Of a stretch of DNA of 41,753 nt, positions 32,091-34,018 are shown piece by piece; within the stretch, counting starts at the first letter, position 1, and each line of letters begins with the position of its first letter. The stretch is from Terriglobia bacterium (lineage in GTDB: Bacteria; Acidobacteriota; Terriglobia; UBA7540): contig DASTAW010000025.1 in the NCBI GenBank assembly GCA_035712365.1, positions 1 to 41,753 of the forward strand, read 5' to 3'. A program made the translations under genes and the position numbers. Under the pieces are notes generated by a model. The model searched no databases. It was not told the DNA's origin and saw nothing but the letters and a program-made list of their open reading frames with translations.

Positions 32091-32240
32091 CTATTTGCCC
32101 AGGTATTTCTCAGGCTCTTTGTCAAACTTTGCCTTGCAGCCGGACGCGCAGAAGTAAATGGTCTGGCCCTTGTACTGGCTGGTGGCCGCCGCCTTCCCAG
32201 ACTCGATCGTCATCTTGCAAACCGGGTCAATGACTTTCAT
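32091..32240 (-). CDS. Small YHS-domain (metal-binding) protein
   Basis: A 49-residue protein that is a complete YHS domain: VIDPVCKMTIESG with one Cys, then YKGQTIYFCASGCKAKFDK with two Cys, and EPEKYLGK at the end. YHS/TRASH-like domains bind soft metals such as copper and are often fused to copper ATPases or used as small metallochaperones. The start at ATG 32240 has a perfect AAGGAG site five bases upstream. It is convergent with the molybdoenzyme gene, 32 bases apart. A minus-strand promoter is not clear in the upstream gap. It is a good candidate for a free-standing metal-sensing or trafficking protein. Confidence 0.88.
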   Translation of the reverse strand: MKVIDPVCKMTIESGKAAATSQYKGQTIYFCASGCKAKFDKEPEKYLGK

Positions 32241-32430
32241 AACGCTCCTTTCCACCGGAACGATCATGGGGCATGATTGCCCTTTTCAGAATAGACGATT
32301 GAATCATGAGAACACCAGCGACGATGTGACGCTCCGGGGGGTAAAGGGGAAGATAAAAACGACGGACCGGGTTAGAAGACCCCTGAGGATGGGGAAAGGC
32401 TAGAAGGAGTGGCGGGCCGGAGCCAGGACC

Positions 32431-32640
32431 GGGTTTTCGGTTTGTTTTTGGTCCGTTTTTTGGCCCTCCAATGTTTTCAATAAGATCGGTAGCTTTGTTT
32501 TTAGGTTCGTTCCGGTTTGTTTTTTCCACAGCTACGCGTTTTCAACAACTTCTCCGCTTTGTTTTCCGGTTTGTTTTTGGCTATCCATGTAGCCTTTCCC
32601 TTTGTTTTCAATATCTTCTCCGCTTTGTTTTGCAAAAAAC
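32431..32640 (+). repeat. T-rich degenerate tandem repeat, period about 65 bp
   Basis: Three units begin with GTTTTCAA: 32473, 32538 and 32604 (spacing 65 and 66). The core is GTTTTCAA(C/T)A-x-CTTCTCCGCTTTG followed by TTTT in units 2 and 3, and a diverged copy (GTTTTCAATAAGATCGGTAG) in unit 1. CGGTTTGTTTTT recurs at 32438, 32513 and 32567. On the other strand it is a purine-rich AAAACAAAGCGGAGAAG pattern. No known element matches, and no cas genes are present. It may be a mobile or structural DNA repeat. Confidence 0.75.
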
Positions 32641-32757
32641 GTGTTTTTTTGTCCCATTTTGTCTCTTTTAGTCCCGGAAAACTCGATGCTCGCAGGCATT
32701 ATGGGAAGACTACCATGCTAGGCCAGAAAAGTCAAGAAAAATCGGCGGGAGAGGCTG

Positions 32758-32793
32758 GAAGTCAGGAGCCAGAAGTCAGGAGTAAGAAGTCAG
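32758..32793 (+). repeat. 14-bp tandem repeat, about 2.6 copies
   Basis: GAAGTCAGGAGCCA (32758-32771), GAAGTCAGGAGTAA (32772-32785) and a partial GAAGTCAG (32786-32793) stand head to tail. Repeats of this sort are simple-sequence-like and seem to recur in some GC-rich genomes; that statement is from memory. Confidence 0.75.
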
Positions 32794-32925: not shown

Positions 32926-33705
32926 TCAGCAGACACCGTTGAGCGAAAGGCGTTTCCTGATTTCTTCCAGGACCTCCCCTGCTTTTCCCTGTAGTTTCAC
33001 ATCGACGTATTGCGTCAGCACGGTTGGATTGGGATTGATCTCCACCAGCAGGGCGCCTGAACGTTTGGCCCGCAGGGCCCAGTCGCCGATGTAGGAGAAG
33101 GTTGCTTCGGTGCCGATCACCAGCGCCACATCAATCCAGCTCTGGTGGAAATAGTCATCGATCTGGGCGCGGGGGGCGGTGGGGAGAGATTCACCGATCC
33201 AGACCACGCCTGGCCTCAGGAGCGCACCACAGGCGCACGTAGGCGGAAGTCCTGGCAGGGGCACCCGCCGGTCTTCATAAGTGTTGCCATCTGCGAGGCA
33301 GGTTACACGCCAAATGGAACCATGAATGTGGACCACGCGGTGACTGCCAGCCCGTTCATGAAGGTCGTCCACGTTCTGGGTGATGATGAACACGTCGCGG
33401 ACCGGACCTTCAAGCCCCGCCAGCACGTGGTGTGCAGGGTTGGGTGAAGCGCTGGCGATGAGGCCGCGGCGATAGTCGTACCACTCCCACACCAGCCTGG
33501 GGTCTCTTCTGAAGGCTGAGAAAGTTGCAAGCTCGGCCGGATTCAGGGACCTCCACCATCCGCCCTCACCCCGAAACGTTGGAACGTTGCTTTCTGCTGA
33601 CACCCCGGCGCCGGTGAGGACCAGTACATTTCTGGCATCCCGAAGTTTTTGGACAACCGTGGCCAGTTCGGGAGTAATCGCCCGGCTTTGAGCTGCGTTT
33701 GGCAT
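32926..33705 (-). CDS. Sir2-family (class III-like) NAD-dependent deacylase
   Basis: From ATG 33705 the product is 259 residues. It shows LTGAGVSAESNVPTFRG (residues 30-46, NAD loop), ITQNVDDLHERAG, and HIHGS with catalytic His128. The Tyr76-x-x-Arg79 pattern in WEWYDYRRG is the class III signature that allows removal of succinyl and malonyl groups as well as acetyl. ALLRPGVVWIGES and VALVIGTEATF continue the fold. The zinc module has only three Cys (Cys136, Cys157, Cys159); one usual position is replaced in TCLADGN, resembling CobB of E. coli. The frame is open up to 33810, but the extra residues show no homology. No clear ribosome site precedes ATG 33705. Confidence 0.93.
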   Translation of the reverse strand: MPNAAQSRAITPELATVVQKLRDARNVLVLTGAGVSAESNVPTFRGEGGWWRSLNPAELATFSAFRRDPRLVWEWYDYRRGLIASASPNPAHHVLAGLEGPVRDVFIITQNVDDLHERAGSHRVVHIHGSIWRVTCLADGNTYEDRRVPLPGLPPTCACGALLRPGVVWIGESLPTAPRAQIDDYFHQSWIDVALVIGTEATFSYIGDWALRAKRSGALLVEINPNPTVLTQYVDVKLQGKAGEVLEEIRKRLSLNGVC

Positions 33706-34018
33706 GGAGGAATGATTATTGTAACTCAATTGCGCCAATCTGGAGCCGGTCGGCACGGCGAGAATTTGCGTGTGGCCCTGTGCTGTCCACCGGCTGAGAA
33801 CGGCGCGCACGAACAGGCGCGGCTTCGCAAATCAATGGACCCGCGAACCGAGGACCTTTATTCAGTAACCAGTCCGGCAACATGATCGCCCCTGGACCGT
33901 TTGAATTCAGTCACAATACCCGCGGGCTATTGCTGCCTTTCACCCTTGAAAATTCAGGTTGACTGCGGCCGCGAACCAGAGTATAGTTGCCGAATCTATC
34001 ACAAAAAAGGAGAAGCCC
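33706..34018. other. Divergent gap between sirtuin and PilZ genes
   Basis: This 313-base region holds the plus-strand promoter of the PilZ gene at 33959-33987 and the leader of the divergent sirtuin gene. TATTCAGTAACCAG and other short AT-rich bits occur, but no minus-strand promoter with both boxes could be picked. No gene fits. Confidence 0.5.
33959..33987 (+). promoter_or_regulatory. Sigma-70-type promoter of the PilZ gene
   Basis: TTGACT (33959-33964) and TATAGT (33982-33987) are 17 bases apart, a five-of-six match in each box at ideal spacing. Transcription would start near 33994 and leave a 25-base leader with AAGGAG before ATG 34019. The TTG of the -35 box opens a longer frame, so that start is discarded. 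Confidence 0.65.

Follow-up and report, generated by a model that had tools for sequence, protein, structure and literature searches.

A patch of repetitive DNA in the genome of a Terriglobia bacterium (G000, 4.67 Mb in 65 contigs) belongs to a bounded, dispersed element which occupies at least 40 places in that genome, is mostly preceded by a sigma70-like promoter pattern, tends to lie in the same sense as the surrounding genes and is nearly restricted to one bacterial family. The element is tentatively interpreted here as a lineage-specific, multicopy family of non-coding RNA genes, each bearing an array of binding units. The copy from which the analysis started lies in the window, the whole 41,753-nucleotide stretch of contig C25.

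At this copy, the motif GTTTTCAA recurs at positions 32473, 32538 and 32604, with spacings of 65 and 66, and CGGTTTGTTTTT-like blocks are placed between these units. A 28-nt block is present in two copies with 93% identity and in a third, diverged copy (Table 1). The first-pass annotation, which had described a T-rich repeat with a period near 65 bp, a block shared by two units and a diverged form in the third, was therefore right about the repeat; Tandem Repeats Finder did not report the 65-nt period. The strand asymmetry that it pointed out is also confirmed. In 200-nt windows the patch has a G+C content of 0.41 to 0.47 and an AT skew of about -0.51, against a G+C content of mostly 0.55 to 0.67 and much smaller skews in the surroundings. 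The bounds it gave, 32431 to 32640, are too narrow, and the whole element extends from about 32736, at the promoter, to about 32400. The annotation had read the T-rich plus strand; the functional strand is probably the minus strand, on which the body is A-rich and its units combine ACRAASC sites with TTGTTGAAAAC-like cores. On the promoter side lies a mini-repeat beginning GAAGTCAGGAGC; similar CTGACTTC/CTGGCTCC repeats are found directly upstream of several other copies, and another dispersed repeat, CATACCGGAACTTCTCACTTTGCAGCGAC, directly upstream of some.

Table 1. Features of the element copy in the window and of its surroundings.
Feature	Position	Strand	Remarks
Promoter CTTGACTTTTCTGGCCTAGCATGGTAGTCT	32707-32736	-	sigma70-like TTGACT-N17-TAGTCT; -35 TTGACT at 32735-32730, 17-nt spacer, -10 TAGTCT at 32712-32707
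Inverted repeat CTA-N6-TAG over the -10	32710-32721	-	in most copies, by eye; includes 1 of the 11 CTAG of the window
Leader, short (type A)	32660-32706	-	leaders elsewhere up to about 270 nt
A-rich body, about 205 nt, three units of about 65 nt	32451-32659	-	nhmmer profile of the family
Unit 1 AAAACAAAGCGGAGAAGATATTGAAAAC	32604-32631	-	
Unit 2 AAAACAAAGCGGAGAAGTTGTTGAAAAC	32538-32565	-	
Unit 3, diverged AACAAAGCTACCGATCTTATTGAAAAC	32473-32499	-	
Seven ACRAASC sites	32439-32628	-	32622-32628, 32568-32574, 32556-32562, 32514-32520, 32504-32510, 32492-32498, 32439-32445
3' tail, ending at CTAG 32400-32403	32400-32450	-	
14-nt tandem mini-repeat GAAGTCAGGAGCAA, promoter side	32758-32793	+	distinct dispersed repeat, upstream of other copies too
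YHS domain protein gene, 49 aa, downstream	32091-32240	-	co-directional
Sir2 family gene, upstream	32926-33810	-	co-directional; longest frame, start may be nearer 33705

Matches to the element were found at no fewer than 40 places in G000 (43 pieces at E <= 0.01), a lower bound since 40 of 53 first-look candidates were scored. The 16-mer AAAACAAAGCGGAGAA, with at most one mismatch, matches this genome 46 times, against 0 for its reversed control; together with the recurrence of the whole element, this places the repeat beyond chance. The copies examined comprise the 40 places in G000 and the best-scoring ones of G002 (18) and G001 (16), and 64 of these 74 have a full body. Ten of the 40 copies in G000 (L031, L033, L035, L036, L048, L049, L082, L083, L087 and L090) are no more than about 500 nt away from a contig end, so that the element seems to break the assembly there.

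The promoter pattern TTGAC-N17..19-TAGNC occurs within 330 nt upstream of 62 of the 67 bodies with enough sequence in G000, G001 and G002, and in none of 65 control stretches. Among the five exceptions, three loci of G000 and G001 (L030, L110 and L114) are promoterless and have orthologous flanks, and in L030 and L114 the body directly follows the end of a gene; the promoter of L086 falls in part beyond the measured stretch, and that of L041 is a one-base variant. A looser pattern, with up to two mismatches, matches G000 genome-wide 25 times versus 14 for the reversed control. Nineteen of these 25 matches are at the 40 element places, a proportion that becomes 19 of 21 among those with at most one mismatch. 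The leaders that follow differ among copies in type and length. The tetranucleotide CTAG is rare in the window, with 11 occurrences observed against 154 expected, a 14-fold depletion. It is found at the promoter (32718) and often at the 3' side (32400) of the element. Of 72 copies, 33 have a CTAG within 50 nt past the body; the subsequent 50-nt bins contain one in 0 to 2 of 71 to 72 copies, except for 6 in the 100-150 bin. A terminator hairpin at the 3' CTAG was considered and rejected, since the 35 windows around it fold hardly better than controls (z of -0.31 versus -0.13). The form GGCTAG past the body is commoner with convergent next genes (9 opposite, 7 co-directional), and CTAGCC occurs mostly with co-directional next genes (11 versus 1 opposite); 5 copies have both forms. 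The suggestion in the first-pass annotation that the repeat could be a source of small RNA is rendered plausible by the promoter before 62 of 67 bodies, the transcripts themselves being a prediction from these signals.

Each full body contains 5 to 9 ACRAASC-like sites, 7 of them in 32 of the 64 bodies, compared with 0.10 per 200 nt in the flanks. Across the 64 bodies the sites are spaced mostly by 10-12 or 42-44 nt. The trinucleotide AAA shows a period of 10.5-10.75 nt, with values of 0.72 and 0.69 versus 0.14-0.15 in shuffled bodies. Further peaks appear at 8.25 and 13.25-13.5 nt, indicating that part of this periodicity may stem from the 65-nt repeat itself. The bodies look non-coding. The three frames are open in only 9, 4 and 13 of the 64 bodies, which makes a coding peptide unlikely; stops and one-nucleotide length changes are found in most copies, and one base of variation among bodies is seen in the spacing of the second and third cores. 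Pooled folding of the 64 bodies from G000, G001 and G002 with RNAalifold gave no pair, and separate folding of the bodies of each genome gave weak structures (-4.2 to -11.2 kcal/mol). A wedge-model calculation puts the strongest curvature predicted anywhere in the window at this copy, with 112 degrees at 32643. Curved DNA, another early suggestion, applies to this copy; as a conserved trait of the family it was rejected, because the mean maximum of the 64 bodies is 65 versus 58 (sd 16.5) in shuffled ones. Rfam has no match in the window at the gathering score. A search of 9 loci at E <= 1 returned two matches, both sub-threshold, one of which is inside the guaB gene of L094. The other, to DUF805b RNA (L032:1466-1496; 23.9 bits, gathering 35.6, E 0.0087), lies on the element strand, shortly 3' of the body of one copy.

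Genes around the copies were called with a simple ORF scorer; the orientation counts for G000, G001 and G002 leave out genes shorter than 180 nt and any call that overlapped the body. In tandem gene contexts, elements point with rather than against the genes in 13 versus 3 cases in G000, 9 versus 2 in G002 and 8 versus 2 in G001. The pooled count is 30 versus 7 (30/37, p 0.0002), in which orthologous loci are counted repeatedly; G000 alone gives p 0.02. Four copies in these three genomes point at a convergent gene. The bias is complete in G003, where 25 of the 40 loci are tandem with the genes and none against them, the others being divergent (11), convergent (1) or missing a gene call on one side (3). 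The genes downstream of the element are a housekeeping mix in G000, including HrcA, SHMT, GidA, DNA ligase, GAPDH, RuvC and Lon, and likewise a housekeeping mix in G003. No common function emerged among the downstream genes scanned with Pfam, which were the YHS gene of the window and 19 of the 24 other listed genes in G000, and those at 20 of the 40 loci in G003. In 2 of 5 orthologous sets, by eye and among the output inspected, the next gene has its own conserved promoter-like stretch between the element and its start. The guaB gene keeps the promoter TTGACG-N17-TAAAAT in G000, G001 and G002; yet the 900 nt before the gene are free of the element in G001, and the G000 contig stops 215 nt before it. 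These promoters make the element look like a separate unit and not the leader of the next gene. No similarity was detected downstream of the body among 30 copies.

The element is also present in both other genomes of the genus that were searched. A degenerate unit pattern, AACGAASCNNNNAASTTRTTGAAAA, with one mismatch allowed, has matches in 22 of 39 genomes of the family, in 13 of 18 genera. The maximum per genome is 71, in G003, and G016 has 38; the reversed pattern has 0 in every family genome. In a sample of 297 genomes from the phylum, the pattern was found in the own genome and, as a single match, in one other (1 of 296 others), and the reversed control again had no match. Copy numbers for G001, G002 and G014 are lower bounds, at most 18 candidates having been scored per genome. 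Viral contigs contain no exact match to the unit pattern, so that no phage carrier of the exact pattern was found. The first-pass annotation had proposed a special element and a search of its unit against this genome and related ones; that search finds the repeat neither single-copy nor unconserved, and a special, repeated and conserved element is what it reveals.

Among the listed matches the unit core differs by species, being GAAGCCGCTAAG in G016 and GAAGCCACCAAG in G003. GGA is present in most units of G000 and G002 and absent from both of these cores. In G016, 9 of 10 fetched loci, those bearing the CGCT unit, have a promoter that is strong but of another kind, with a score of 13.1 versus 9.8 (sd 0.95) in shuffled sequences. 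Here 8 of 9 copies fold an anti-unit with the unit before or the unit after it (shuffle z -2.0 to -5.6), so that two exclusive hairpins are possible; L151 forms neither hairpin and L150 is of another type. The order of unit 1, inverted anti-unit and unit 2 at L149 and others of the loci L148-L157 has a switch-like look. Two unit types are found in G003. The GAAGCC type (19 loci) lies between two co-directional genes at 16 of 19 loci and has on average no promoter signal behind the unit (9.77 versus 9.71 shuffled, 18 scorable loci), L193 being an exception with a good promoter. Most units of this type should therefore sit within operon mRNA; their downstream genes include those for Mur-ligase, Proton_antipo_M, histidinol dehydrogenase and UvrD. 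The second type, a single ACCGG unit (21 loci), is found upstream of predicted gene promoters, with a best score of 11.05 versus 9.47 (sd 0.92) shuffled. At ACCGG loci (e.g., L169, L175 and L196), TGTA arrays are seen 40-160 nt before the unit, with 43 sense TGTA versus 5 TACA. Hfq matches are present in the carriers G000, G001, G002, G003 and G016 and in 37 of 39 family genomes, non-carriers included, so Hfq does not single out carriers.

Positions of the element persist between species, as 12 of 18 fetched G002 copies have flanks in common with element sites of G000. Differences exist as well. The site downstream of fumC holds an element in G001 and G002 and lacks it in G000, and upstream of guaB an element is present in G002 and absent in G001. 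Of G001, G002 and G003, G001 alone yielded the Sir2 gene, in a different neighbourhood. The sequence of the bodies does not follow their positions. The 18 pairs with orthologous flanks have a body identity of 0.771, non-orthologous pairs from different genomes 0.764, and copies from one genome 0.82 and 0.81. Orthologs are more similar than the non-ortholog mean in 9 of the 18 pairs, and more similar than either paralog mean in 2. For 56 of 64 bodies the closest relative comes from the same genome, and a tree of the bodies has 6 label changes versus 26.1 when shuffled (0 of 200 as low; bootstrap not settled). The G001 and G002 copies had been picked by similarity to the G000 copy, a choice that should work against species separation. 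Since copies that share a site between species resemble each other no better than unrelated copies do, the element seems to be homogenised separately in each species, a case of concerted evolution. The base following the ACRAASC site is C at 48 of 66 sites counted in G001, compared with 3 of 240 for G000 and 0 of 107 for G002. This G-to-C change makes up four of five diagnostic columns, carried by 77-89% of G001 copies, and the fifth column is another change. A base change common to most sites of one species suggests either homogenisation or a partner that recognises the sequence. Copying seems to involve whole units, because the G001 loci L112 and L115 have one entire unit in common that starts exactly at the -35. 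This unit includes a leader stretch resembling the gene end beside the L114 body. As to the early suggestion of a mobile remnant, some mobility is likely, given the difference at fumC and the unit common to the two G001 loci; no transposase common to the carriers was found, nor any terminal repeat at the window copy.

Candidate movers were sought among the carriers. Reverse transcriptase (RVT_1) has matches in 18 of 39 family genomes, some carriers included, and none in G000, G001, G002, G003 and G016. Y1_Tnp has matches in G000, G001 and G002 and none in G003 and G016 (98% and 96% complete), despite their 71 and 38 unit matches. Neither enzyme is common to all carriers, and both were rejected as general movers; carriers lacking one or the other indicate that neither family is generally needed. 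At the window copy there are no terminal inverted repeats of the kind found in a MITE, the sole inverted pair around it (17 nt, 88%) having one arm in the tail and the other within the body. By eye, no obvious target-site duplication is seen at L112/L115, and a reading of the empty fumC site in G000 did not reveal where the element's ends would fall.

Several known systems resemble the element in part. CRISPR arrays have direct repeats of about 28 nt spaced by about 65 nt, and so does the element; unlike them, it has only two or three units, and an alignment of the 64 bodies shows similar sequence between the units, where unique spacers would be expected. CsrB/RsmZ and CrcZ are sponge RNAs with repeated protein-binding sites, which in the CsrB/RsmZ type are ANGGA motifs in loops and in CrcZ-like sponges are A-rich repeats bound by Hfq. 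The predicted RNA is similar in offering several copies of a short single-stranded motif on one molecule. It differs in occupying dozens of dispersed loci instead of one or few, in that GGA does not occur in the units of every species (the motif is missing from the G016 and G003 cores) and in lacking conserved loops. An A-rich motif is also reported to be bound by Crc (PMC3003667). NgncR_162/163 of Neisseria are described as sibling sRNAs of a multicopy family (PMC9973317). The putative genes discussed here likewise form several similar copies per genome, but with a much higher copy number, a body made of a unit array, variable leaders and concerted evolution across species. REP elements are given as palindromes of 20-40 bp (PMC3733652), and REP/REPIN elements as mobilised by RAYT (Y1) transposases (PMC3733652, PMC3116915). 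They share with the present element a short extragenic repeat, many copies and lineage-specific versions. The element is far longer, has its own promoter and a sense bias, and two of its carriers lack Y1_Tnp; the bodies of G000, G001 and G002 have no palindrome in common, and only G016 differs in this respect through its unit/anti-unit hairpin. Retroelements and retrons require a reverse transcriptase, for which the five carriers named above have no match. Among the entries listed by literature searches, none mentions the element.

The RNA interpretation may be outlined as follows. Nearly every copy would start at its own sigma70-like promoter and give rise to a short, A-rich, largely unstructured RNA, from the minus strand at the window copy. 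Along this RNA, ACRAASC sites and TTGTTGAAAAC-like cores would be arrayed in a 65-nt register, and the molecule might serve as a binding platform for an RNA-binding protein or a pairing partner. It could work as a sponge made in many copies, or as a landing element within neighbouring transcripts; in G003 the unit appears to be carried within operon mRNAs. In favour of this interpretation are the 40 or more copies, the promoter before nearly all bodies, the sense orientation, the GAAGCC units of G003 that mostly have no promoter behind them, the mostly closed reading frames, the base change in G001 and the presence of Hfq in the five carriers named. Copies would be gained and lost between species and homogenised within a genome. 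A broader version, in which high-copy non-coding RNA genes and mRNA-embedded units are used across the family and read by a dedicated, co-evolving RNA-binding partner as an RNA regulon over tens of unrelated housekeeping transcripts, is rather unlikely. Against an RNA role in general stand the lack of a fold in the pooled bodies, the lack of a terminator, the presence of Hfq outside carriers and the lack of a common downstream function. The 10-12-nt spacing and the AAA period would also fit DNA binding, and the ACCGG type of G003, upstream of predicted promoters, fits a role at the DNA level as well.

These last observations lead to the main rival, which we consider unlikely: ACRAASC sites about one helical turn apart in the DNA would be recognised by a nucleoid or regulatory protein specific to the family, with the promoter as no more than a neighbour or as its target. 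The 42-44-nt spacing, the AAA periodicity above that of shuffles, the inverted repeat seen by eye over the -10 and the base change common to most G001 sites agree with such an array. It accounts poorly for the sense orientation in 25 of 25 tandem cases in G003 and for the GAAGCC loci, most of which have no promoter behind the unit; curvature is not common to the family, and the additional periodicity peaks leave room for an effect of the 65-nt repeat. Still less probable is a selfish short repeat, MITE-like or REP-like and free of host function, that kept a promoter as an aid to spreading. Dispersed copies, a quarter of those in G000 close to contig ends, the unit of L112/L115 beginning at the -35 and the presence/absence differences at fumC and guaB are in line with it, but the persistence of 12 of 18 G002 copies on G000 flanks, the orientation bias, the pattern of RVT_1 and Y1_Tnp absence, the missing terminal inverted repeat at the window copy and the viral contigs devoid of exact unit matches argue against it.

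A cis-acting 5' leader, providing the next gene with an alternative promoter and a regulatory leader, is very improbable. The co-directional bias in tandem contexts (30 versus 7 and 25 versus 0) would suit it; however, next genes in two of five orthologous sets have their own promoter-like stretch by eye, guaB keeps its promoter without an element in G001, similarity ends with the body, 7 tandem copies are reversed and 4 face a convergent gene. We give almost no credence to chance low-complexity or curved DNA, or to a coding or CRISPR-like repeat. The A-richness, the 28-nt direct repeats some 65 nt apart, the strongest predicted bend of the window and the few bodies with open frames could invite these explanations, which are countered by the copy number against a 16-mer control of 0, the stops and one-nucleotide changes in most copies and the likeness of the stretches between units. 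Copy number and conservation, in particular, make chance unlikely.

Even if it were only a repeat, the family would still define an element that is absent from Rfam and may break assemblies, and would be an instance of dispersed intergenic sequences evolving in concert in carriers that have neither a reverse transcriptase nor a Y1 transposase in common. If transcribed, it would constitute an unusually numerous non-coding RNA gene family for a bacterial genome. The phylum Acidobacteriota is poorly cultured. The base change in most G001 sites makes a trans-acting partner of the element directly searchable.
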